Source: Hyphomonas beringensis
GTDB lineage: Bacteria; Pseudomonadota; Alphaproteobacteria; Caulobacterales; Hyphomonadaceae
Reading direction: 5' to 3'
Length of the DNA stretch: 64,000 nt
NCBI RefSeq assembly: GCF_000682755.1
Contig: NZ_AWFF01000054.1
Location: 1 to 64,000, forward strand
Part shown: positions 29,419 through 63,847 of the stretch, one piece after another
How positions within the stretch are numbered: position 1 is the first letter of the stretch
Layout: every line of letters starts with the position of its first letter
Made by a program: the position numbers and the translations under genes
The notes under the pieces: model-generated
Told to the model about the DNA's origin: nothing
Database searches by the model: none
What the model saw: only the letters and a program-made list of their open reading frames with translations

Positions 29419-30261
29419 ATGTTTGACGCGCCATACGAAAGCAAGTTTGTCGACGATCCAAAAGGGAAGGTTCACTATCTGGATGTCGGGGAAGGGGAAG
29501 TCGTCTTCCTGATCCAGGGCGGTGGGCCTGGCGCATATGGCTACAGCAACTATCGACGCAATGTAGGGCCTCTTGCCGAACAAGGACGGCGTGTCATCAC
29601 GATTGATCTGCCGGGGTTTGGTCAATCGGACAAACGCTATGGACACGAAGGCCTCTTCGATCCGATGGCGGAAGCTGTTCTGGACATCATGAACCATGAG
29701 GGCATTGAGAAGGCGAGCTTCGTGGGTAACTCGCTCGGTGGCGGGACGTCTTTGCGGTTCGCACTGGATAATCCGGATCGCACGAACAAGCTCATTCTGA
29801 TGGGGCCGGGCGGCAGCATCCCTATGACTTCGACGTTTCCGACTGAAGGCCTGCTCCGTATGCTAACATTCTATGATGGTGAAGGCCCAACGATCGAAAA
29901 GCTGCGTAAGGTTGTGGAGCTACTCGTCTACGATCCGTCGGAGATCTCAGATGATCTGCTGGAAGAGCGGCTTAAAACTGCGATGGCACCGCAGACCTTG
30001 AAAGATCCTCCGCTGCGTGGACAGGCTCATAACCCGCGCAACGATCTTTGGCGCGAACGCCTTGACCTACTCCCGCATCCGACTTTGCTCCTTTGGGGGC
30101 GTGAAGATCGCGTGTTGCCTCTGGATGCAGCGTTCATTCTTTTGAAGACGATTCCGAACGCCGATTTGCACGTATTCTCTAAGTGCGGGCACTGGTGCCA
30201 ATGGGAGCGTGCCGATGAGTTCAACGAGATTGTCGGGAAATTCCTTGACCGCTCGTACTGA
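29419..30261 (+). CDS. Meta-cleavage product hydrolase (alpha/beta hydrolase)
   Basis: The 280-residue hydrolase resembles BphD, HsaD and CmtE, which split the C-C bond of ring-fission products into 2-hydroxypenta-2,4-dienoate (or a derivative) and a carboxylic acid. The triad is complete: Ser105 in GNSLGG, Asp230 in GREDRVLP and His258 in KCGHWCQWE. The oxyanion region reads QGGGPGA where most relatives have HGGGPGA. It sits directly behind the extradiol dioxygenase gene. The acid released (isobutyrate, benzoate or a larger ring remnant) cannot be read from the sequence. Confidence 0.9.
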   Translation: MFDAPYESKFVDDPKGKVHYLDVGEGEVVFLIQGGGPGAYGYSNYRRNVGPLAEQGRRVITIDLPGFGQSDKRYGHEGLFDPMAEAVLDIMNHEGIEKASFVGNSLGGGTSLRFALDNPDRTNKLILMGPGGSIPMTSTFPTEGLLRMLTFYDGEGPTIEKLRKVVELLVYDPSEISDDLLEERLKTAMAPQTLKDPPLRGQAHNPRNDLWRERLDLLPHPTLLLWGREDRVLPLDAAFILLKTIPNADLHVFSKCGHWCQWERADEFNEIVGKFLDRSY

Positions 30262-50321: not shown

Positions 50322-50881
50322 GTGTTGTTCGGCGACGTGAATCCGTCGGGGCACTTGCTGATGACCTTCCCGGCCTCTGTCGAGTTGAGTTTTATCGGTG
50401 CAGGAGCGTCCGGGCAAACGCTTGACGTGAGGGGCTCAGATGTTGGCGATCGCTGGTATGCGCGCAAAGAGATCGAGCCGCTTTTCCCGTTCGCCTTCGG
50501 GCTCAGCTATACCGATTTTGATCTGAGCGGACTTAAGGTGCGCAAGCAGGGCGCAGCGATAAATGCTTCATTCGGGATGAAGAACACGGGCGCGTACCTA
50601 GGCGCAGATGTTGCTCAGCTTTATCTTGTGTCGGTCGATGGCGAGACGAAGCAGCGGCTTGTCGGTTTCGCGAAGCGAGAGCTTGATCCGGACGAAATGC
50701 AGGACGTAGCCTGCAGATTGATCCACGTCTGCTGGCTGCATGGAAAGATGACAGCTGGCAGGTTCCGGCGGGTCGGTACGAATTCGCTTTGGGTGAGGAT
50801 GCCGACAGCTTGGGCGCTGCCGTAGCCATTATCCTGGGTGACTTTACTATTTCGCCTGATGGGAAAAAGATTGTTCGCTAA
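50322..50881 (+). pseudogene. Glycoside hydrolase family 3 beta-glucosidase, 3' fragment with frameshift
   Basis: Translation from 50322 gives VLFGDVNPSGHLLMTFP and then EPLFPFAFGLSYTDFDLSGL, the C-terminal GH3 domain and start of the fibronectin-III-like domain of BglX-type beta-glucosidases. Near 50709 the frame breaks. One base later the domain continues as LQIDPRLLAAWKDDSW and AGRYEFALGEDA, ending at TAA 50879-50881. The N-terminal three quarters of the enzyme are absent; a stop lies at 50313-50315 in frame. It is therefore a truncated and frameshifted remnant, probably marking an old insertion, deletion or recombination junction. Confidence 0.82.
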
Positions 50882-50996: not shown

Positions 50997-51857
50997 TTAC
51001 GAGACGGTATCAGTTCGTGTGACAGTAGTGTCGAGAAAGCTATCTATTAGAGATGCTCTCTGGTCGGAAAAGCTCGGATCTGTATAACTCGGCAAGACCT
51101 TCATGCGCCCTGACATGACTACCTCGGCAGCTTGAACGGTGCCCGCAAGCAAGGGGTCGTCCTTTGATGCCAGCATGAGCGTTTCTTTTTCAACAAGCGG
51201 CATTCGCTTTAGTGCGGGCCATGCGAATGCGGCATGGTAGGCGAGTGGATAAGTCTCATTTGCTTTTAAAACTTCAAGCACCCAGGCATGGAGATCATAT
51301 GCGCTTGGCAGGCCTGCGGAACGGCTGGACTTTGCCACACGGTCGTACCAAGGAAAAAACAAGTATTGATCACGGCAGAAATGGAAAGCCTGTGTCAGAT
51401 AAGCGCCATCAAGATCCGGTTTGAAGGGGGGCGCATAATGCTGCATGAATGCATCGCGCTGCTCGCGAGAAAACACACTTATACCTTCAAGTACAAGATG
51501 CCCCACACTTTCAGGCGCCGCGATTGCGAGTTCGGCTGCTATGGCAGCCCCTGTGTGCGAGCCGTATATGTGTGGCTGTTTCAGCCCTAATTTTGCAAGT
51601 AGCAGCAATAGTGCCTCAGCATAATCCTGTACCGAAGGCTTCGCTTTAGGCAGTTTAGGGCTGTCGCCATTTCCCGGCGTATCTGGTGCAAAGACGCTAT
51701 AACCTCTATTCGCGAGATCTAGCATCAAGCCTTCCATCTGACGCGAGCTGCCTGGGGAGGCATGAACAATTACGATTGCAGGGCCATCTCCACAATAGCG
51801 GTAATGGACTTGCCTGTTCCCAATGTCGATGAAGCGGCGCAGGGGTGTGTCGGTCAT
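50997..51857 (-). CDS. Alpha/beta-hydrolase-fold protein without canonical triad (GSHTG elbow)
   Basis: The 286-residue protein has the fold (IVIVHASPGSSRQ oxyanion strand, VFAPDTPGNGDS), but the elbow at 99-103 reads G-S-H-T-G, placing His101 where the serine nucleophile belongs. The acid position is plausible (SKDDPLL), and no histidine is present near the C-terminus where the triad histidine should be. Its upstream partner (2-base gap) has the same replacement. It is the last gene of a four-gene minus-strand operon (VOC, MDR, two hydrolase-like). Its activity may be non-hydrolytic. Confidence 0.82.
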   Translation of the reverse strand: MTDTPLRRFIDIGNRQVHYRYCGDGPAIVIVHASPGSSRQMEGLMLDLANRGYSVFAPDTPGNGDSPKLPKAKPSVQDYAEALLLLLAKLGLKQPHIYGSHTGAAIAAELAIAAPESVGHLVLEGISVFSREQRDAFMQHYAPPFKPDLDGAYLTQAFHFCRDQYLFFPWYDRVAKSSRSAGLPSAYDLHAWVLEVLKANETYPLAYHAAFAWPALKRMPLVEKETLMLASKDDPLLAGTVQAAEVVMSGRMKVLPSYTDPSFSDQRASLIDSFLDTTVTRTDTVS

Positions 51858-51859
51858 AT

Positions 51860-52657
51860 TTATAGTTTTGAGAGCACAAGTCTGGCTGTCTCTTCCGGCC
51901 AGACGTCCATGAAATTATAAACCCAATTCGGCAAGTCGACGATCTCGCCATTTTTCAGCAGAGGCTTTGCGCGTAGGGTTGCTTCGGTCAAATCGTCATT
52001 TGGATTTAGAATGGTGATGCGATGCTCCAGTGTACGCAGGGCGTCTTCGTACCCGGCCCAGGAGAAGGCAGCGTGATGACCCCATTCATAGGCCTCACCC
52101 CCCATGAGATTCAGCGCCATGGAGTGGCCCAACATTTCGTAGGTTACGCCCGCACTTCGACGCTCAATAATCCGCTCCCACATTATCTTGAAGCGAGTGC
52201 CCTCATCATCCAGTGGAATCGGCTCAAACATGTTGCTGAACATCTCCCGCTCTTCTGGCGTGAGGAGCGCGGCAGAGATCATGACAAGGCTTCCAACACG
52301 GTGGGGGTATTTCATAGCCATCGCGGCAATGACTTTAGACCCAGTATGGTTTCCAAACAGATCAATCTTCTCATGCCCCATTTGATCTGCCACACGCCAC
52401 ATTTCTTCAGCGTAGAGGTCGATAGTGGCTTCGCTTTCTGAGCCAGGCCTGTCTGACATGCCATAGCCGGGGTAGTCTGGCGCAATAACCAGACGTTCCT
52501 CGGCGGCAGCTCGCGCAAAGTTTAGGAACTCCGCGCCGCTTTTGGGGCTTTGGTGCGCGCAATAGAGAGGGAGCTTTCCGCTCTCTGCCTCTCCCGCAAT
52601 ATAGGCATGTATCTGACCGTACTTGCCGTCGAAATAAGCCTTTCGCACATTTGTCAT
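51860..52657 (-). CDS. Alpha/beta-hydrolase-fold protein without canonical triad (GNHTG elbow)
   Basis: The 265-residue protein has APDYPGYGMSDRP and a nucleophile elbow at 102-106 reading G-N-H-T-G, with His104 at the nucleophile position. The C-terminal region DLPNWVYNFMDVWPEE resembles the catalytic-histidine segment of hydrolases but lacks the histidine. Together with the adjacent gene it forms a pair with the same unusual elbow. The two may form a heteromer or act in sequence. It lies 2 bases from the MDR gene upstream. Confidence 0.82.
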   Translation of the reverse strand: MTNVRKAYFDGKYGQIHAYIAGEAESGKLPLYCAHQSPKSGAEFLNFARAAAEERLVIAPDYPGYGMSDRPGSESEATIDLYAEEMWRVADQMGHEKIDLFGNHTGSKVIAAMAMKYPHRVGSLVMISAALLTPEEREMFSNMFEPIPLDDEGTRFKIMWERIIERRSAGVTYEMLGHSMALNLMGGEAYEWGHHAAFSWAGYEDALRTLEHRITILNPNDDLTEATLRAKPLLKNGEIVDLPNWVYNFMDVWPEETARLVLSKL

Positions 52658-52659
52658 AG

Positions 52660-53679
52660 CTATGCTTTCTCTGGGCTTACGGTCACAACAGCTTTCCCGC
52701 GGTTCTGGCCGTTCATGAGGCGTTCGAACAGTGCGGGGGCGTTCTCGAGGCCTTCTTCTCTATCCTCGGCGAAAGCAAGTTTTCCATCTTGAATCCACTT
52801 GCCCGCCTCGCCTGCAAATTCGTCCCATTTGGAATAGAAGTCATAGACAACGAGGCCGAACAATTGTGCGCGCTTACCGATGATGGTGCCCATTGGAAGC
52901 GGGTTGGGAACTCTATCCTGACTTTGGACCTGATATCCAGCGGCAAGCCCGCAGAGTACGCCACGTGCATAGGTGCGAGCATTGTCGAGCGCAGTGATTG
53001 CCATGTCTGCGGAAACATTTTCAAAGAAAATGCTTAAGCCATCAGGCAGAGCCTTTTTGAGTTCTGCTTCCCAGCCATCAATCTTGTAATCTATACAGGC
53101 GTCGAAGCCGTAGGTGTCTGTGACGATGGCGCACTTCTCAGCCCCTCCGGCAATTCCTACAACTCTTTCTGCGCCCTTGATGCGGGCTATCTGGCCAACA
53201 GTGCCGCCAACAGGACCTGCAGCAGCGTTCACCAGAACTGTGTCACCTTCGCCAACGTTTGCAAGCTGAGTGATGCCTGCCCATGCTGTGAGGCCCGGCA
53301 TACCGAGTACGCCAGCATGAGAGGCTAGAGGTGCCTGAGTTGGATCGAGCTTTCGAAATGCACCTTCTTTCAGAGATACGAATTCCTGCCATCCTCCCTC
53401 CATGGACTGAATCCAGTCACCTTTGGAAAGGCCGTCGAGGTTTGATTGTACGACCTCACCCACAATTGCTCCGGGAATAGCCTCTACACCTGGGGTCGGT
53501 GGCGCTTCTCCCATATGCTTGCCACGAAGACGTGAGCCAATGTACGGGTCGAGCGATAAGTGTACGACGCGTACAAGGATCCCCTGATCAGGACATTCCG
53601 GAGTCGGAATATCCAATTCAACGAAGTCCGATGCGACGGGTTTGGAATTCAGAGGGTGACGCAGGCTAATCAGTTTCAT
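52660..53679 (-). CDS. NADP-dependent enone reductase-like MDR (CurA/YfmJ-type)
   Basis: The 339-residue protein belongs to the prostaglandin reductase/leukotriene B4 dehydrogenase group of zinc-free MDRs: LSLDPYIGSRLRG near the start, GMPGLTAWAGI, VNAAAGPVGGTVGQIA as nucleotide fold and the YDFY segment. Such enzymes reduce the double bond of alpha,beta-unsaturated ketones with NADPH. It lies 6 bases after the VOC gene and 2 bases before the hydrolase-like genes. This hints at a cyclic enone intermediate, by inference. Confidence 0.83.
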   Translation of the reverse strand: MKLISLRHPLNSKPVASDFVELDIPTPECPDQGILVRVVHLSLDPYIGSRLRGKHMGEAPPTPGVEAIPGAIVGEVVQSNLDGLSKGDWIQSMEGGWQEFVSLKEGAFRKLDPTQAPLASHAGVLGMPGLTAWAGITQLANVGEGDTVLVNAAAGPVGGTVGQIARIKGAERVVGIAGGAEKCAIVTDTYGFDACIDYKIDGWEAELKKALPDGLSIFFENVSADMAITALDNARTYARGVLCGLAAGYQVQSQDRVPNPLPMGTIIGKRAQLFGLVVYDFYSKWDEFAGEAGKWIQDGKLAFAEDREEGLENAPALFERLMNGQNRGKAVVTVSPEKA

Positions 53680-53685
53680 TGCAGG

Positions 53686-54567
53686 TTAACTTTCCACCAT
53701 TTCAACGAGTGTACCGTCCGGCGCTTTCATAGTGCCAGCGCGTTTACCCTTGTAGATCGGGCCTTCGCGGACGACAGGTTCTGTAATCCATGGGCCTGTA
53801 AGGCTGTCAAAGTCAGGGTGCCACAGCGTTCCAATGGCGCACCCAGGAACCAGCATTCCGGGCAGTTGCGGGCGGTTAATGGCGGCATCAGGGTACTGGT
53901 CCAGTTCCAGGAACACATCTCTACCGTGTATCATGGTTGAGATGACATGCATGTCCTGCTCAGGCAGATCATAGGCCGCAGCAAGCATGGTGTAGACGAT
54001 TTCCATGTCTCGGCCCATTTCAACTCCGACATGTTCTTCCATCCATTTGTTGGATGCGCGCATATCTGAACATCCCATGACGAGGATGAACAGTTTGTCG
54101 ATAGCGGCTTCGGCTCTCGGCAAATCAAATGCGGGAAGGTCGGATTTGATCTGTGTAAGATATACAATCTCTTCGTCAGGTCCTTTGACTTGCATCGGAT
54201 GGATTGCCGGCAGTCCGTCGATTTCGCGAGGCGGGCCAATGATTTCGAACGGGCTGTCCTTCATGCGCTCGTTGGCGGCAAGAACGTCTTCAACGCAGAT
54301 CTCGATTGCATTCCAGCCATATGATCTGAGGGCCTTGAAGCCATCGACCTTTGGCTGCTCGATAAGGCGCAGGAATATATCTGCCCCCGAGGCAGGTTGC
54401 ATCACGACATAGTTGGCCCCGGCCGTTTTAGGAGCGTCCCAGCTATCCGCCAGGTCCTGAGGAATTGTTCCTCGTTCAACCACGGAATAATCAAGATAGC
54501 TTGTATAGAGATCGGCAGATCTTTCGATATCTGACACAGTCAGTGTAGCGCTGCGGAGCAACTTCAT
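53686..54567 (-). CDS. VOC-superfamily protein (glyoxalase-like, two domains)
   Basis: The 293-residue protein has two vicinal-oxygen-chelate modules (SATLTVSDIERSADLYTSYL at the start; KLFILVMGCSDMRASNKWM near 160) and ends TLVEMVES with a possible metal glutamate. It does not meet the extradiol dioxygenase signature, so ring cleavage is unlikely. Isomerase, lyase or dioxygenase-like chemistry is open. It is the first gene of the minus-strand four-gene operon and is divergent from the DUF1330 gene. Confidence 0.75.
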   Translation of the reverse strand: MKLLRSATLTVSDIERSADLYTSYLDYSVVERGTIPQDLADSWDAPKTAGANYVVMQPASGADIFLRLIEQPKVDGFKALRSYGWNAIEICVEDVLAANERMKDSPFEIIGPPREIDGLPAIHPMQVKGPDEEIVYLTQIKSDLPAFDLPRAEAAIDKLFILVMGCSDMRASNKWMEEHVGVEMGRDMEIVYTMLAAAYDLPEQDMHVISTMIHGRDVFLELDQYPDAAINRPQLPGMLVPGCAIGTLWHPDFDSLTGPWITEPVVREGPIYKGKRAGTMKAPDGTLVEMVES

Positions 54568-54625: not shown

Positions 54626-54662
54626 AGATATTGTGTGTCTCTGTCAATGATGAGGAATGAGT

Positions 54663-54962
54663 ATGGCCGCCTATATGATTGTTATGTGCAAGATTAAGGA
54701 TCGCGAGCGATTTGTAGCCGAGTATGCGATCCCAACGGCAAAACTGGCTGCCAAATTAGGTGGAGAGTACGTCGTGCGTAGCCCCAATCTGACTTGCCTT
54801 GAAGGTGATATCGATGAGGCGACAAGCGTGGTTATTTCAAAATGGCCTTCGCGCGTGGCCCTTGATGAAATGTGGAACAGTCAGGAGTATCAGCAGCTGA
54901 AGGAAAAGCGTCGTGCATTTTCCGAGGTGCAAATTGTGGTGACTGAGGACAATTCAGTGTGA
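54663..54962 (+). CDS. DUF1330-family small protein
   Basis: The 99-residue protein has the ferredoxin-like alpha/beta-barrel pattern of DUF1330 (AAYMIVMCKIKDRERFVAEY, then GEYVVRSPN and IVVTEDN). Members are dimeric and their function is mostly unknown, though related folds act as small monooxygenases or isomerases. The ATG at 54663 has GAGGA before it; another ATG lies two codons upstream. A strong terminator follows directly. Confidence 0.75.
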   Translation: MAAYMIVMCKIKDRERFVAEYAIPTAKLAAKLGGEYVVRSPNLTCLEGDIDEATSVVISKWPSRVALDEMWNSQEYQQLKEKRRAFSEVQIVVTEDNSV

Positions 54963-55030: not shown

Positions 55031-55393
55031 TCATGCTCGTTCTGCGAGTTCGTCGGCGACCTCTTCAGACTCAGCTTCGTCACCGGTTTCAATGGCTTCG
55101 CCTTCCTGTTGGATAATGCGAAACACCCGAGCTAGATATTCCTGGGTCCACAGGCCACGTTCATCTGCTTCAGTGCGGCTGGCGCGGAAACTCTCGATCG
55201 CTGCCTTTGTCACAGGCTCCCCCCGTTCCAGAAGGCGTTCGATCGTGTCCATACGTTCTCTCGTTACAGCCAATTCTTGCGTAAGAACCAGTACAATATT
55301 TGTAAGGCGTTCGACATCCGGGTTGTCCATGAAGTATGGACGCTTGCCTTTGGCTTTAGCGCCGGCGAGTTTTATGGGATCTATATTGCTCAT
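55031..55393 (-). CDS. Hypothetical 120-residue protein coupled to the methyltransferase
   Basis: The protein starts MSNIDPIKLAGAKAKG and has a long helical middle (NIVLVLTQELAVTRERMDTIERLLERGE) suited to a coiled coil, then a very acidic tail (ETGDEAESEEVADELAE). Its ATG overlaps the methyltransferase stop by one base (TAATG), so the two are translated together. I recognise no domain. A small regulatory or scaffold subunit is a guess. Confidence 0.7.
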   Translation of the reverse strand: MSNIDPIKLAGAKAKGKRPYFMDNPDVERLTNIVLVLTQELAVTRERMDTIERLLERGEPVTKAAIESFRASRTEADERGLWTQEYLARVFRIIQQEGEAIETGDEAESEEVADELAERA

Positions 55394-56625
55394 TATGCAC
55401 TCTTTCTTGCGCCGACAACGTGCCATGCGGCTTTGCGTCCAAAGTCTTCGCTGTCGTCGTCAGCTGCGTCCGGGAAGACATCTTTGTCTACAATTGCGGC
55501 AACACCGCCGTGGATGAGCTCGTCCTGCTTGAAGCCTGCGCGGATCATCCAGTCGTCGAGATCCACTTCATGCATTTTTGTCCAGAATGGTTCATTGTTA
55601 TAGAATGCATCCCAGTCACGCATGGCTTGCTCAAACAAGGACATGCTGCTGTCATATTGCGGCTGTTCAACATGCAGAACAATCCCGTCATTTTTCAGTA
55701 CACGGAAAGATTCGCTGAAGATGTGCGGCATGGTCTTGTAACTGGTTTCGTGCAGGAACATTGTTGACTGAACCCAGTCAAAGCTTTCGTCATCGAAACT
55801 GCTCAGATCTGCGGCATCGCCTTGAATGAATTTGACATTTTCAATGCCCATGGATTTGGCGCGGGCCAGTCCATAGCGCAGCATGGGGGCGCCCACATCA
55901 ATCCCGATAACTTCTGCCTCCGGGAAGGCTTCTGCCAGCGGAAGTACGTTATGACCGAGTCCGCAGCCTATATCCAGAATGCGCTTAGGCTTGAAATCTT
56001 CACCGAGGTTTTTGCGGACCCACTCTGCAACGGCTTTGCCGCCGCCATCATTATACAGCCCCAACATGCCCCCTGTCGTTGCAAACAGACCGATGTCATA
56101 ATTTGCCGGGCCAGTGATATCGCCTTCAACCAGCTCAGTATGGTAGCTGCCAGGCATGCAGTGATGGTCAATCGCCTCCACACCCCTAGGAAGAGGCAGC
56201 TTACTATCCAGCAACAGGCGAGGGTCTGAATTTGTGAGATCGGCGGCTTTCGTATTCAGTTCGTCAGCCTGACGCAAAACGACCCAGCGACCTGCCTGCT
56301 GGCGGGATTCCATCGTGGCGCGGCGTAGGGCAGACCACCATTGCCAAATTGGATCTTTCGCGAGCGCTTTGCGTACTTCATGACGCGAAGCGAAAGGCTT
56401 GCCCTCAGTCTTGATGCGCTCAGGCTCAATGCGAGCTTCATATGCCTTCCCGATAAAGGGCATGACTTGTGTGGAAAGATGGCGGTTCATCTGTGCAAGG
56501 AAATTGAAGCGTGCAGATTCATCATGGCTGACATTGGGGTACATGCCATGCTGTCCGGCAACGCGGTAGTCAGGGGGGCCCTCATATTGGGGCTTTCTTT
56601 CTTGAGTATACTGAGTGTCAGCCAT
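55393..56625 (-). CDS. Class I SAM-dependent methyltransferase with N-terminal extension
   Basis: The 410-residue protein has the SAM-binding motif RILDIGCGLGHNVLPLA at about 216-232, then VIGIDVGAP and GDAADLSSFDDESFDWV, the standard motifs I-III. The first 190 residues have no obvious family and contain RHEVRKALAKDPIWQWWSAL. It may methylate an intermediate or a carboxylate. In a catabolic island such an enzyme is odd. It is coupled to the 120-residue protein downstream and divergent from the small protein at 56746. Confidence 0.8.
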   Translation of the reverse strand: MADTQYTQERKPQYEGPPDYRVAGQHGMYPNVSHDESARFNFLAQMNRHLSTQVMPFIGKAYEARIEPERIKTEGKPFASRHEVRKALAKDPIWQWWSALRRATMESRQQAGRWVVLRQADELNTKAADLTNSDPRLLLDSKLPLPRGVEAIDHHCMPGSYHTELVEGDITGPANYDIGLFATTGGMLGLYNDGGGKAVAEWVRKNLGEDFKPKRILDIGCGLGHNVLPLAEAFPEAEVIGIDVGAPMLRYGLARAKSMGIENVKFIQGDAADLSSFDDESFDWVQSTMFLHETSYKTMPHIFSESFRVLKNDGIVLHVEQPQYDSSMSLFEQAMRDWDAFYNNEPFWTKMHEVDLDDWMIRAGFKQDELIHGGVAAIVDKDVFPDAADDDSEDFGRKAAWHVVGARKSA

Positions 56626-57069: not shown

Positions 57070-57909
57070 ATGGAAAAGCGCCTTAGAGGCAAAGTCGCGG
57101 TAATTACTGGCTCTGGTCGACGCGGAGGTTTAGGCGAAGCCATTGCGCGAAGGCTGGCAAATGACGGCGCCGAAATCGTCTTGTCAGACCTGGGGGCACC
57201 ACGTGATACGGCAACAACAGCTGATCATATTGGCCTCAACGAGGAGATGGAGAGCATTGCGGAAGACCTGCGTGGTCTGGGAGCCACTGTCTCGTGCAAG
57301 ACGTGTGATGTTCGAAGCCTTGAGGAAGTTCGCGCTTTGGCCGCTCATGCGGCAAGCACGCATGGCGGACTCGACATCTGGGTAAACAATGCCGGTATTG
57401 GCTACATTATGAAGCCATTGCTGGATGTTACGGAATCGGACTGGCGTGCCGTTATCGACGTAAATCTCACCGGAGCCTTTTTTGGTATCAAGGCGGCGGC
57501 GGAGCACATGGTCAAACAGGGCAGAGGCGGCCGGATTATCAATATTGCCTCCCAAGCGGCAAAGTCAGGCTTTCCGCATGCGCAGGCCTATACAAGCTCC
57601 AAGCATGGTTTGGTCGGACTGGTCAGGTCGGCAGCTATTGAGCTTGGCGCCCATGCCGTAACGGTTAATAATGTTTGCCCTAATCACGTTACAACCGGAT
57701 TGGGTGCATGGCAGAACGAGTATTTTGCCAAAGTGACCGGGGCTTCATCCGTACAGGACTATATGGAGGCCATGGCCAAACGTATTCCTTTGGGGCGTCC
57801 TGGTTTGCCTGAAGACACGGCAAATGCTGTCTCGTGGCTATGCTCTGAAGAAGCTGCATACATCACCGCTGAAAGCATGAATGTCTCAGGAGGCGAGGAG
57901 CCCCACTGA
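57070..57909 (+). CDS. SDR-family oxidoreductase
   Basis: The 279-residue SDR has ITGSGRRGGLGEA as nucleotide motif, NNAG, INIASQAAKSG and the active-site YTSSK. An insertion after the second strand (GAPRDTATTADHIGLNEEME) is typical of mycofactocin-like or carveol-dehydrogenase-like SDRs. That is an impression only. AGGAGG precedes the ATG. It lies between the HapK-like and deacetylase genes and probably oxidises an alcohol of the substrate. Confidence 0.83.
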   Translation: MEKRLRGKVAVITGSGRRGGLGEAIARRLANDGAEIVLSDLGAPRDTATTADHIGLNEEMESIAEDLRGLGATVSCKTCDVRSLEEVRALAAHAASTHGGLDIWVNNAGIGYIMKPLLDVTESDWRAVIDVNLTGAFFGIKAAAEHMVKQGRGGRIINIASQAAKSGFPHAQAYTSSKHGLVGLVRSAAIELGAHAVTVNNVCPNHVTTGLGAWQNEYFAKVTGASSVQDYMEAMAKRIPLGRPGLPEDTANAVSWLCSEEAAYITAESMNVSGGEEPH

Positions 57910-57970: not shown

Positions 57971-58870
57971 ATGAATTTGCCAAGTGATCCTGCACCAAAG
58001 GATTTTGCGTGGCCTGGCGGCAAGAAGCTTGCCTTGTCGATTGTCGTCAATGTTGAGGAAGGCGCGGAGCGCCGGATTGATGAGGGCGACAAGCGTCCTG
58101 AGCCAGTGGATGAACTCGGTGCTGTGCCTGGAAAACCTATACGTGTGCACGGGAACGAAACCAATTATCAGTATGGAATCAACCAGGGTGCCCCTCGCAT
58201 ATTGCGAATTCTCGATAAGGCAAAAATGCCTGCCACATGGACCGTTTGCGGTCAGGCGCTCGAAAAAGCACCGTGGCTTGCCAAGGCGATTACTGCGCGT
58301 GGGGATGAGCCCTGCAATCATGGCTACAAGTGGAACTTCACCACTTTCATGACGCCTGAGGAAGAGCGGGATTTCATTAAACGCGGCACAGAATCTATTG
58401 AGAAGACGACGGGCCGCCGACCGTCAGGCTGGCTGTCACGTTATCTCCATTCGGATATTACCCGCCGGATCATTATTGAGCAGGGGTATTCGTATCACAT
58501 GGATGACTACTCTGATGATTTCCCGTATTGGGCGCTCACAGAGATGGAAGACGGTAGTCAGAAGCCAATCGTTATTCTGCCTTATGCGATAGACACAAAT
58601 GATATGAAGTTCTGGATTGCGCCATCTTTCACGCCTGAGATGTGGCTGGACTATGCAAAGCGTACGTTCGATTTCCTGAGAGAGGAATCGAAAGGCCAGG
58701 GGGCTCGAATGATGAGCCTGGGGTTGCACCTTCGGATTATTGGTCGGCCAGGTCGAATTGATGCTTTCCGGGCTTTCCTGGACTATGTTGCGACGTTTGA
58801 GGATGTCTGGGTTGCCAAGCGCGAGGACATCGCAAAACATTTCGCCGAGAATGTGCCCGCTCCTAACTAA
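57971..58870 (+). CDS. PuuE-like polysaccharide-deacetylase-family hydrolase
   Basis: The 299-residue NodB-fold protein is of the allantoinase/cyclic-imidase branch: SIVVNVEEGAE near the start (metal/base region), CNHGYKW in the middle and GLHLRIIGRPGR near the C-terminus, where relatives usually have LHPRIxGRPGR. No signal peptide is present, so it is cytoplasmic and unlikely to act on cell-wall polymers. It could open a ring amide, imide or lactone-like bond. AAGGATAAACC precedes the ATG and a strong terminator follows. Confidence 0.82.
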   Translation: MNLPSDPAPKDFAWPGGKKLALSIVVNVEEGAERRIDEGDKRPEPVDELGAVPGKPIRVHGNETNYQYGINQGAPRILRILDKAKMPATWTVCGQALEKAPWLAKAITARGDEPCNHGYKWNFTTFMTPEEERDFIKRGTESIEKTTGRRPSGWLSRYLHSDITRRIIIEQGYSYHMDDYSDDFPYWALTEMEDGSQKPIVILPYAIDTNDMKFWIAPSFTPEMWLDYAKRTFDFLREESKGQGARMMSLGLHLRIIGRPGRIDAFRAFLDYVATFEDVWVAKREDIAKHFAENVPAPN

Positions 58871-60360: not shown

Positions 60361-61545
60361 ATGACAGATAATCTGAGTGAAGATGATCGCCTGATTCTAG
60401 ATGCCATCGGGAAGTGGCTCAATCAAAAAGTCAAACCAGTTGCGATGCGGTTGGAGCATGACGACGAATACCCTCATGACCTTGTAGAGGACATGAAGGA
60501 ACTTGGCCTTTTTGGGGCGATCATTGATGAGGAATACGGCGGTTTGGGCCTATCGGCTTCAACCTATTCAAGGGTTGTCACGCTCATCGCGGAAGAGTGG
60601 ATGAGCCTGAGCGGGATCTTCAACTCCCATCTCATGATGGCAACGATTGTCCAGAAGTTCGGAACCCAACGGCAAAAAGAATATTGGCTGCCAAAGTTCG
60701 CTACTGGCGAAATCCGCGGTGGGCTTGCCCTAACAGAGCCTAATGCCGGTACAGATCTTCAAGCCATTACGACGCGTGCAAAAAGGGTCGGCGACAAATA
60801 TGTCGTCGAAGGCGCCAAGACGTGGATATCCAACGCGATTCAAGGCAATTGTGTTGCCCTTCTGGTCAAGACTGACCCTAGCGCAGAACCGCGCTATCAG
60901 GGAATGTCTATGCTGATTACGCAAACGAAAACAGCGCCTGATACGGATGACCATCTGCCTGGTGTCAGAAACGGAAAGAAGCTCGAAAAGCTGGGGTACA
61001 AGGGCATCGACTCCGGCGAACTCATTTATAATGATTATGAGTGCAGCGCAGACCTCAGCCTTGTGGGCGGTGAAGAAGGCAAGGGCTTCTACATGGCGAC
61101 AGGCGGGCTGGAAATTGGCCGTATCAATGTTGCTGCGCGTTCCGTTGGTATTGCCAAACGTGCCTTGAGGGAATCTGTTGCCTATGCGCAGTCACGGAAA
61201 ACGATGGGAAAACCCATTTCCGAGCATCAGGCCATTCAACTGAAACTCGGCGAGATGGCCGCTAAAACAAGGGCTGCTGAGTTGCTCGTGGAAGATGCTG
61301 CGCGGCTTTTTGATCTTGGTCAACGTGTAGACATGGAAGCGGGAATGGCGAAGTATTTTGCTTCCGAGGCTGCGCTGTATTGTGCCACTGAAGCAATGCG
61401 CATCCATGGTGGCTACGGTTACTCAAAGGAATATCCCATCGAACGGCTATTCCGTGACGCGCCACTCATGTGCATTGGGGAAGGTACGAATGAAATGCAA
61501 CGCATCATCATCGCCAAACAACTCGTGAAGCGGAATCCCGTCTAA
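60361..61545 (+). CDS. Acyl-CoA dehydrogenase (SCAD type)
   Basis: The 394-residue ACAD has LTEPNAGTDLQAI as the FAD loop and IGEGTNEMQ near the C-terminus with the catalytic glutamate at about 374. It lies 9 bases after MaoC and its stop overlaps the CoA transferase start (TAATG). In this operon it would provide the unsaturated CoA ester for the hydratase, acting on a saturated dicarboxyl-CoA such as methylsuccinyl-CoA; this is inference from gene order. Confidence 0.87.
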   Translation: MTDNLSEDDRLILDAIGKWLNQKVKPVAMRLEHDDEYPHDLVEDMKELGLFGAIIDEEYGGLGLSASTYSRVVTLIAEEWMSLSGIFNSHLMMATIVQKFGTQRQKEYWLPKFATGEIRGGLALTEPNAGTDLQAITTRAKRVGDKYVVEGAKTWISNAIQGNCVALLVKTDPSAEPRYQGMSMLITQTKTAPDTDDHLPGVRNGKKLEKLGYKGIDSGELIYNDYECSADLSLVGGEEGKGFYMATGGLEIGRINVAARSVGIAKRALRESVAYAQSRKTMGKPISEHQAIQLKLGEMAAKTRAAELLVEDAARLFDLGQRVDMEAGMAKYFASEAALYCATEAMRIHGGYGYSKEYPIERLFRDAPLMCIGEGTNEMQRIIIAKQLVKRNPV

Positions 61546-62684
61546 TGGCTTTACCCCTTAAAGGCGTTCGTATCCTTTCAGTTGAACAGTATGGTGCGGG
61601 TCCATATGGCACAATGCTGCTCGCTGATCTTGGTGCTGAAGTTATCAAGATTGAAGATAAAGCCCGCGGGGGCGATGTTTCGCGCTCGGTGGGCCCCTTC
61701 ACCATCGGAGAGGGTGATAGCCAGTTCTTTCAGACATTTTCGAAAGGAAAGAAGTCTGTGTGTCTGGATTTGAAGTCTGAAGATGGAAGAGCGGCCCTTC
61801 ACAAGCTTGTCGCAACTGCCGATGCGGTTGCGAATAATTTACGTGGTGATCAGCCTGAAAAGCTGGGGCTGACATATGAAGCGCTAAAGCAGACGAACAA
61901 AAAAATCGTTTGCGCGCACCTGTCTGCATATGGCCGTGGCACGGAGCGTGCGGCCTGGCCAGGCTATGATTATCTCATGCAGGCAGAAGCAGGCTTCATG
62001 ATGATGACAGGGGAGCCTGATGGCCCTCCGGTCCGCTCCGGCCTTTCAATGGTCGATTTCCATACAGGCAGCCATCTCGCGACATCGCTGCTGGCGGGTA
62101 TAATCGGTGTGATGCGTACGGGAGAGGGGTGTGATGTAGATGTTTGTCTGTTCGATACGGCGCTGCATCAGACATCTTATCCGGCTACCTGGTACTTGAA
62201 CGAAGCGCACAAAACAGAGCGCCTTACGCGTGGGGCGCATCCCTCAATAGCGCCCTCACAATTATTCAAGACAAAGGACGGCTGGGGGCTGCTGATGTGT
62301 CAGACTCCGAAGTTCTGGAATGTCTTTTGCGCCATAACTGGCGATGAAGTTCTGACTTCGGACACCAGGTTCGCGACTGTCCATGCGCGTCGTGAAAACA
62401 TTGAGGCACTGACAAAACGAATTGATGAAATTCTGTCGGAACGCACAACAGCTGAGTGGATGGAAATACTGGGTGGAAAGGTGCCATTCGCGCCTGTACT
62501 GGATCTCGCGGGCGCGCTTGATAGTCCCTATGCAGAGGCAATCGGAATGATCGAAACGGTTGAGCATCCAAGTATGGCGAACGGGCTTAGGACGCTTGCG
62601 TCTCCGTTTCGTGTGAACGGTGAACGTGCAAGATCCAGCCGCGCGCCCATGATGGGCGAGCATAATGATGAGTTGCTGAAGTGA
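61545..62684 (+). CDS. Family III CoA transferase, first copy in operon
   Basis: The 379-residue CaiB/BaiF protein has GVRILSVEQYGAGPYGTM, LGAEVIKIED and SVCLDLKSEDGR, with a candidate catalytic aspartate in MVDFHTGSH. It transfers CoA to an acid, here probably the substrate of the ACAD encoded upstream. It overlaps the ACAD gene by one base and the next CoA transferase by four (GTGA). Confidence 0.88.
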   Translation: MALPLKGVRILSVEQYGAGPYGTMLLADLGAEVIKIEDKARGGDVSRSVGPFTIGEGDSQFFQTFSKGKKSVCLDLKSEDGRAALHKLVATADAVANNLRGDQPEKLGLTYEALKQTNKKIVCAHLSAYGRGTERAAWPGYDYLMQAEAGFMMMTGEPDGPPVRSGLSMVDFHTGSHLATSLLAGIIGVMRTGEGCDVDVCLFDTALHQTSYPATWYLNEAHKTERLTRGAHPSIAPSQLFKTKDGWGLLMCQTPKFWNVFCAITGDEVLTSDTRFATVHARRENIEALTKRIDEILSERTTAEWMEILGGKVPFAPVLDLAGALDSPYAEAIGMIETVEHPSMANGLRTLASPFRVNGERARSSRAPMMGEHNDELLK

Positions 62685-63847
62685 AGTTAGACGGACTGAA
62701 AGTTATCGATTTGTCCGCGTTTTTGCCCGGACCGCACATGACCATGACCATGGCTGATCATGGGGCTGACGTGATAATGGTTGAGCCCGCAAATGGTTTG
62801 GGTGAGCCAGTGCGCGATATTGGGGAGAAGACGCCGGATGGCGTGTCTGTCTGGTTTCGCAACGTGGCTCGCGGGAAACGAAGCCTGAAGCTCAATCTAA
62901 AGGACCCGGATGGGCTCGCCGTGCTGCATGCGCTCGCGCGTGAGGCAGATGTTTTCGTGGAGGCATTCCGGCCAGGTGTCGTAAAACGGCTCTGCGTTGA
63001 TTATGAAACTTTGTCTCGCATCAATCCGCGTCTTGTTTACTGTTCAATTTCCGCATTTGGGCAAGATGCTTCGCTGGCGCAGAAGCCAGCGCATGATGTG
63101 TCAGTTCAGGGGTTTGCGGGTTTGGTTGATCTCAATAGGGGCCAGGATAATCTGCCCGCCATGCCACATATTCCTTTTGCTGATGCAGCAGCCTCACTCA
63201 CGGCGCTGTCGGCAGTATTGATGGCACTTTATCGCCGCGAGAAAACAAATGCGGGTGAGTATATTGACCTTTCCATGTTTGATGCTGCGATTGCTTGGAC
63301 TCCCAATGTACTTGGGCCAACTTTTGCCGAAGGTCGCGCACCCTCCCCAAAGGATATGCGAAGCTTTGGTGGCAGTGCCATGTACAATCTCTACCGTACT
63401 TCCGATGACGAATATATTATTCTGGGTGGTAGTGAAGTGAAGTTTGCCGCAAATCTTCTCGCTGCCTTGCAAAGGGAAGATCTGCTGTCATACGCGAAAC
63501 TACCGCCAGGGCCTGCTCAGGCTCCTTTGCGGGACTTCTTCAGGGATACCTTTTCGGGTAGCACTTTGGCATACTGGAAAGAGTTTCTCGCCGATGTGGA
63601 TTGTTGCTGGAGTTGGGTGAGAAGCCTGATGGAGGCATTCGATGATCCGTTCACAGGGGAGCGGGGTATGGTGTGTACGGATGCGAATGGTAACCGCCAT
63701 ATAGGGCCGCCTATAAAGTTCAGGTTCGAGCCGGCTGAGCTTCGGCCTGTTACTCCAGAGTATGGTCAGCATTCTGAGCAAATAGTACAGAGTCTTGGCT
63801 TTACCGTGGAGCAGGTTTCGAGCTTGAAGGCCAAAGGAACGATCTAA
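62681..63847 (+). CDS. Family III CoA transferase, second copy in operon
   Basis: The 388-residue CaiB/BaiF protein starts at GTG within the end of the previous gene. It has KVIDLSAFLPGPHMTMTMAD, GADVIMVEP and RSLKLNLKDPDG, with a candidate aspartate in PFADAAASL. Tandem copies suggest two subunits or two acids handled in sequence, as for succinyl-CoA:malate-type transferases with two different subunits. Its stop overlaps the next start by one base. Confidence 0.87.
   Translation: MKLDGLKVIDLSAFLPGPHMTMTMADHGADVIMVEPANGLGEPVRDIGEKTPDGVSVWFRNVARGKRSLKLNLKDPDGLAVLHALAREADVFVEAFRPGVVKRLCVDYETLSRINPRLVYCSISAFGQDASLAQKPAHDVSVQGFAGLVDLNRGQDNLPAMPHIPFADAAASLTALSAVLMALYRREKTNAGEYIDLSMFDAAIAWTPNVLGPTFAEGRAPSPKDMRSFGGSAMYNLYRTSDDEYIILGGSEVKFAANLLAALQREDLLSYAKLPPGPAQAPLRDFFRDTFSGSTLAYWKEFLADVDCCWSWVRSLMEAFDDPFTGERGMVCTDANGNRHIGPPIKFRFEPAELRPVTPEYGQHSEQIVQSLGFTVEQVSSLKAKGTI

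Follow-up and report, generated by a model that had tools for sequence, protein, structure and literature searches.

The window analysed here, a stretch of 64,000 nucleotides from Hyphomonas beringensis, contains two neighbouring minus-strand genes for alpha/beta-hydrolase-fold proteins in which a histidine stands at the nucleophile elbow. P1 (50997–51857, 286 aa) has the elbow G-S-H-T-G within IYGSHTGAAI, and P2 (51860–52657, 265 aa) has G-N-H-T-G within LFGNHTGSKV. Both were read from the DNA and assigned by Pfam and by clades of 13 and 29 His-elbow sequences, respectively, and P2 also by a structure model. The elbow codon lies at 51555–51557 (minus strand) for His101 of P1, from DNA reading and alignment, and at 52346–52348 (minus strand) for His104 of P2, from DNA reading, alignment and model. 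The alignments place an Asp after strand 7 in both proteins, Asp234 in P1 and Asp221 in P2, the latter encoded at 51995–51997 (minus strand) and seen also in the DNA and the model. Ser is absent from both elbows, as is the Asp nucleophile of haloalkane dehalogenases, epoxide hydrolases and fluoroacetate dehalogenases, and no His follows strand 8 in the SYTDPSF region of P1 or the NWVYNFMDVW region of P2. The meta-cleavage hydrolase at 29419–30261 in the same window retains Ser-Asp-His in the motifs GNSLG, GREDRV and KCGH. These readings bear out what the first-pass annotation had claimed for the two elbows in neighbouring genes, for the missing C-terminal triad histidines and for the intact triad of the meta-cleavage hydrolase.

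Next to P2 on the minus strand lie genes for an MDR-family reductase (52660–53679), assigned by profile and synteny and curcumin-reductase-like with a score of 282 bits that falls below the curated cut-off of 440, and for a two-domain VOC (glyoxalase-superfamily) protein (53686–54567) assigned by profile and synteny. The gaps between VOC and MDR, MDR and P2, and P2 and P1 are 6, 2 and 2 bases, so that VOC-MDR-P2-P1 reads as one operon, which agrees with the operon first proposed for P1 and P2. Beyond it are a DUF1330 protein that recurs in the clusters (54657–54962, plus strand; clustering and profile), a small protein of cluster c7 (55031–55426, minus strand; clustering) that travels with the methyltransferase-like gene, the 410-aa methyltransferase-like protein itself (55393–56625, minus strand; profile and clustering) and, on the plus strand, a HapK/RedY-like protein (PF11639; 56746–57060) identified by profile and association counts. 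Profiles assign the remaining plus-strand genes: an SDR dehydrogenase (57070–57909), a PuuE/cyclic-imidase-like hydrolase of the polysaccharide-deacetylase family (57971–58870; see also PMC9304392), an HpcH/HpaI-CitE-type lyase (PF03328; 58975–59811), a mesaconyl-CoA-hydratase/MaoC-type hydratase (PF19315, PF01575; 59830–60351), an acyl-CoA dehydrogenase (60361–61545) and two family III CoA transferases (61545–62684 and 62681–63847). On the other side of P1, a short plus-strand frame (50322–50825) has a partial match to the C-terminal domain of glycosyl hydrolase 3 (26.2 bits against a cut-off of 31) and is possibly a gene remnant.

Both proteins pass the cut-off of Pfam Abhydrolase_1 (PF00561, 25.8 bits), P1 with 65.8 and P2 with 59 bits, and neither matches an NCBIfam model at its cut-off. 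The AlphaFold2 model of P2, built from 13 sequences, has a pLDDT of 90.8 and a pTM of 0.89 and shows a complete canonical fold, in which strand 98–103 leads into His104 and then into helix 106–116, i.e. the nucleophile elbow. Alignment and model both place the His at the elbow, which speaks against a true nucleophile elsewhere, the refuting condition named at first pass. The model of P1, whose alignment had P2-type rows only, is poorer (pLDDT 72.4). VIA-align puts perhydrolases and esterases first among the Foldseek matches to the P2 model, with 4dgq_A at the top (Z 29.0, rmsd 2.3, 252 aligned).

Relatives were sought at increasing distance. Among 299 genomes of the source's order, a P2 search gives matches at 1e-3 in 290, mostly weak, and above 200 bits in 25 (43–100% identity); 11 relatives were found in genome contigs, including Henriciella, Hyphomonas and Parvularculaceae MAGs. 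The corresponding P1 search matches 27 of the 299 genomes at 1e-18. Searches with the P1+P2 alignment A1, which contained one wrong-strand row (L095, excluded from the domain set described below), match 34 of 385 genomes of the class at 1e-25, and 7 of 398 genomes of the phylum, and give 216 matches among solved structures, with a His at the elbow in none of the five that were aligned.

A His at the elbow is characteristic of the family. It is present in 129 of 164 non-redundant domains from all loci fetched, a biased sample and not a census frequency, since the loci were drawn with family queries. Among these 129 domains, Thr follows the His in 125, and the motif's Gly before and after are present in 122 and 123; exceptions at Thr include GIHAG in a P2 relative of G160 and GFHAG in L145. 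Ala or Phe replaces the elbow His in L147, L149, L152, L154 and L156. The Asp after strand 7 is found in 118 of the 124 His-elbow domains with a residue at that site, and His-Thr and Asp are constant over members of about 25–30% identity. Of 18 other domains, most of them degenerate, 15 have the same Asp as well (Fisher p 0.09), so that conservation does not demonstrate a coupling of His and Asp. The C-terminal loop holds some His in 31 of the 87 His-elbow domains in which it could be aligned. On this evidence the absence of a C-terminal His is true of P1 and P2 and is not fixed across the family; the elbow His hardly varies, and the usual C-terminal base does.

Of the 164 domains, 145 entered a tree (19 were left out for gaps) that was calculated with the three elbow columns excluded and places P1 and P2 in separate deep clades. 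The P2 clade contains 29 rows (SH-aLRT 99) and the P1 clade 13 (SH-aLRT 97), and the elbow His is present in all 29 and all 13. The His/non-His label requires 6 changes on the tree, compared to 21.6 in shuffles. The retention of the motif throughout both clades rules out a sequencing or frame artefact; the first-pass annotation had argued against a sequencing artefact from the intact meta-cleavage hydrolase. A recent tandem duplication is likewise ruled out, by the 22–23% identity of P1 and P2 together with their separate clades.

The gene neighbourhoods of 20 P2-type genes were compared, a choice among the P2 relatives that leaves out G130, G085, G174, G115 and G293. In 14 of them a VOC, an MDR and a P2-type gene succeed one another on the same strand, all within ~2 kb, and the order is missing in L048, L058, L061, L065, L066 and L067. 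The clusters around this gene order include enzymes for imide/lactam opening and for C4/C5 acids. The L048 copy is a further P2-type protein of the source genome outside the window (C2:40270-41031, 46%, elbow GYHTG), and the stretch read around it holds neither a VOC nor an MDR gene. In plasmids, VOC matches occur in eight records, all from sphingomonads; in all eight a P1-type gene with the elbow GSHTG directly follows the VOC gene, and the same records contain the methyltransferase-like protein at 60–63%. These neighbourhoods support a co-occurrence of HTG proteins with MDR and VOC genes, which the first-pass annotation had named as a check for HTG pairs. His-elbow and MDR-like domains are joined in one open frame of 624–656 aa in L086, L087, L090 and L092, four genomes of one genus, where the MDR-like parts, labelled by sequence reading and by BLAST clustering with the MDR-like frames of the window, share 90–93% identity with the L086 part.

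Outside the source's order, the VOC-MDR module is missing from many His-elbow neighbourhoods. The partners that recur, as judged by clustering and Pfam, are methyltransferase-like, HapK-like and SDR proteins, the PuuE-like polysaccharide-deacetylase and isochorismatase families, LeuCD-like proteins, the PEP-mutase/ICL family, HMGL-like proteins, FAD_binding_4 oxidoreductases, CoA transferases, TonB receptors and, in five loci, CpeT; the TonB, SDR and CoA-transferase labels in other loci derive from similarity clusters. Cluster c8 is a recurrent membrane-like protein, mostly of 216–245 aa with two longer frames (L050–L054, L063, L064, L099, L100 and others), and five copies scanned gave no convincing Pfam family. 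Recurrent proteins of ~170 aa (L059:10228-10764, L055:969-1475) have weak, sub-cut-off similarity to DUF3598_N, and L054:16022-16528 of the same cluster has no match at E 0.01.

A moved base is the simplest reading of a pattern in which the His at the elbow and the Asp after strand 7 are retained while the usual His is free to vary. We propose, tentatively and with somewhat less than even confidence, that the base has been moved to the elbow as a His-Asp pair without a covalent nucleophile, and that the proteins carry out C–C or ring cleavage on an N-heterocyclic substrate. P1 and P2 form part of a subfamily whose nucleophile elbow reads G-x-H-T-G. With the conserved post-strand-7 Asp holding it in place, the elbow His would take over the job of the His after strand 8; in P2 we infer a contact between His104 and Asp221. 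The His after strand 8 would be dispensable once the base is relocated, and both a serine-type nucleophile and an acyl-enzyme would be absent. Thr105 and the residue that follows His35 would still form the oxyanion hole with their backbone NH groups. Such a site may suit a carbon-acid or water-activating reaction, e.g. retro-Claisen or retro-aldol C–C cleavage, hydration or isomerization, on a substrate that the neighbouring VOC protein and MDR reductase would prepare beforehand. Indirect support for an altered activity, as surmised at first pass, comes from the conserved His-Thr and post-strand-7 Asp and from the catabolic-cluster setting.

It is rather unlikely that the His-elbow domains are instead non-catalytic and act in binding, as carriers or as scaffolds, like the NDRG-like alpha/beta hydrolases without a triad. 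Their triad is incomplete, and P2 narrowly passes the Pfam Ndr model (PF03096) with 25.7 bits against a cut-off of 23.3, which P1 does not reach (19.7 bits); Abhydrolase_1 scores higher for both. The family also contains two-domain proteins (L074, L096, L097, L099, L100, L134, L136–L142, L165, L166 and others), and among 32 such frames, counted from stop to stop with near-copies such as L099/L100 included, 19 combine a His-elbow domain with a non-His domain, 12 have His in both and one in neither. The second domain without His in 19 of 32 frames means that degeneration does occur in the family. However, wherever a two-domain frame has a His elbow at all (31 frames), its first domain carries one, and His-Thr and Asp remain fixed over the range of identities given above, although a fold used for binding alone has no obvious need of them. 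Among the 12 frames with His in both domains, at least two (L074, L155) lack HTG in the second, and the first elbow reads ATHTS in frames of L099, L100, L110 (as L096) and L111 (as L097).

A heteromer of P1 and P2 that shares a single composite active site is a distinctly improbable reading. The two genes are adjacent, co-oriented and 2 bases apart, and adjacent single-domain His-elbow genes are found in other clades, in G160:C1 (GIHAG and GFHTG; L191, i.e. G160:C1:12000-28000) and in G435:C9 (L173), where both elbows are GHHTG; the two-domain frames of the wider family, 19 of which join a His-elbow domain to one of another kind, would be a further form of the same arrangement. Nevertheless, a P1-type gene lies beside P2 in only one of the 20 P2-type neighbourhoods (G070), and there it is incomplete and stops after about residue 152 of P1; the separate deep clades of the two proteins also speak against a composite site. 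The conserved P1/P2 pair is rejected, and the heteromeric enzyme that the first-pass annotation had put forward is not supported as such a pair. As a theme, pairing is more frequent, as seen in G160, in G435 and in the 32 two-domain frames.

A covalent role for the elbow His, through an acyl-histidine or similar intermediate, has a small probability. The residue does occupy the nucleophile position in the P2 model, but no such case appears in section 2.7 of PMC11878206, and the C-terminal His that usually serves as second base varies among the proteins. Similarly slight is the chance that the elbow His is a ligand of a metal or haem, shared with other side chains. Alignment A2 also shows invariant histidines at positions 17 and 35 (His17, His35), but no second ligand was identified near the elbow, and His35 occupies the position of the fold's usual strand-3 HGxP-type His. 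An ordinary esterase with its nucleophile elsewhere is scarcely credible: esterases, perhydrolases and related enzymes are what Pfam and the fold comparison match, but the elbow is without Ser, Cys or Asp and holds His in model and alignments. An ordinary Ser or Asp hydrolase is ruled out by the same His in the DNA and the alignments.

As to the substrate of the proposed moved-base enzymes, the imide- and lactam-opening enzymes in the clusters, together with maleate-type hydratases and lyases and CoA enzymes, suggest a nitrogen-heterocyclic carbon source, judged from gene content. The deacetylase family that includes PuuE, HpPgdA and an imidase of P. putida is tied in PMC9304392 to the opening of cyclic imides, after which an amidase acts; the gene set of these clusters parallels this. 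The branch present in the window, with its HpcH/CitE-type lyase, hydratase, dehydrogenase and CoA transferases, would fit the needs of a methyl-branched C4 diacid.

A bilin-like substrate is a lead only. Within the order, 18 of 30 genomes that have P1/P2 relatives contain CpeT/CpcT-family genes (PF06206), compared to 1 of 30 without a strong match (Fisher 2.6e-6), both sets being hand-picked, different in their families and uncorrected for kinship; 16 of 41 CpeT genes lie within 30 kb of a gene of the His-elbow family. HapK-like proteins exceed their cut-off in 28 of 30 and 2 of 30 of these genomes, respectively. Outside the order the counts are 2 of 28 and 0 of 19 for CpeT and 11 of 28 and 0 of 19 for HapK-like proteins, where the 28 are from 34 matched genomes and include some whose matched domains are without the elbow His (e.g. 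L147, L149, L152), and the 19 include very small genomes. The lead is weakened by these outside-order counts, by the plasmid collection, in which one CpeT query found no match, and by the source genome, in which CpeT is absent; the CpeT and HapK members may be unrelated to bilins. Among 14 control genomes the CpeT family occurs in Synechococcus only. The CpeT/CpcT-like cluster (L052:15359-16300, L055:4174-5124, L062:2810-3823, L063:3994-4932, L119:3953-4987; L062 is PF06206 by Pfam) lies beside catabolic clusters in heterotrophic Caulobacterales-type genomes, its proteins have signal-peptide-like starts as judged by eye, and the G160 pair lies 4–8 kb from two CpeT-family genes. Searches of solved structures with CpeT-like and c26 proteins gave no match, and the open-licence literature searched gave no useful match on bacterial pathways that involve bilins, imides, HapK or CpeT.

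The conserved swap in proteins of catabolic clusters points to an undescribed way of using the alpha/beta-hydrolase fold. This fold is one of the largest among enzymes, and its Ser/Cys/Asp-His-Asp arrangement is regarded as nearly universal; a conserved elbow His with loss of the usual His would, if the proposal is true, mean that the triad's base is able to change place. It would also give a function to proteins annotated merely as alpha/beta hydrolase or hypothetical protein, and the VOC-MDR module and the imide/lactam openers make both chemistry and substrate testable. No description of the His-elbow motif was found in the open-licence literature searched, and an earlier account may exist elsewhere.

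The usual triad of the fold is described in PMC7034887. Section 2.7 of PMC11878206 gives serine as always present at the nucleophile elbow and then lists exceptions with Asp, with Cys and without serine, none of them with His. The serine-less cases in that section, carboxy lyases with a D/E-H dyad and CGI-58, resemble P1 and P2 in working without an elbow serine and differ in that no elbow His is described for them. Compared to Abhydrolase_1 (PF00561), P1 and P2 share the fold, the HxSP motif of strand 3, the position of the elbow and the Asp after strand 7, but have His-Thr at the elbow in place of Ser, Asp or Cys, and their C-terminal His is not conserved. The meta-cleavage C–C hydrolases BphD, HsaD and DxnB2 have the same fold, with DxnB2 (4lyd) among the fold matches of P2, but against HsaD P1 and P2 score 35.9 and 41.9 where the curated cut-off is 400. 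These hydrolases act in catabolic operons and keep Ser-Asp-His. Non-hydrolytic, base-driven chemistry on the alpha/beta-hydrolase fold is known from HOD/QDO, MenH and the hydroxynitrile lyases, which keep both a Ser at the elbow and the His after strand 8. They are alike to the mechanism proposed here in their base-driven chemistry and differ from it in that Ser elbow and strand-8 His, where P1 and P2 would use a base at the elbow itself.
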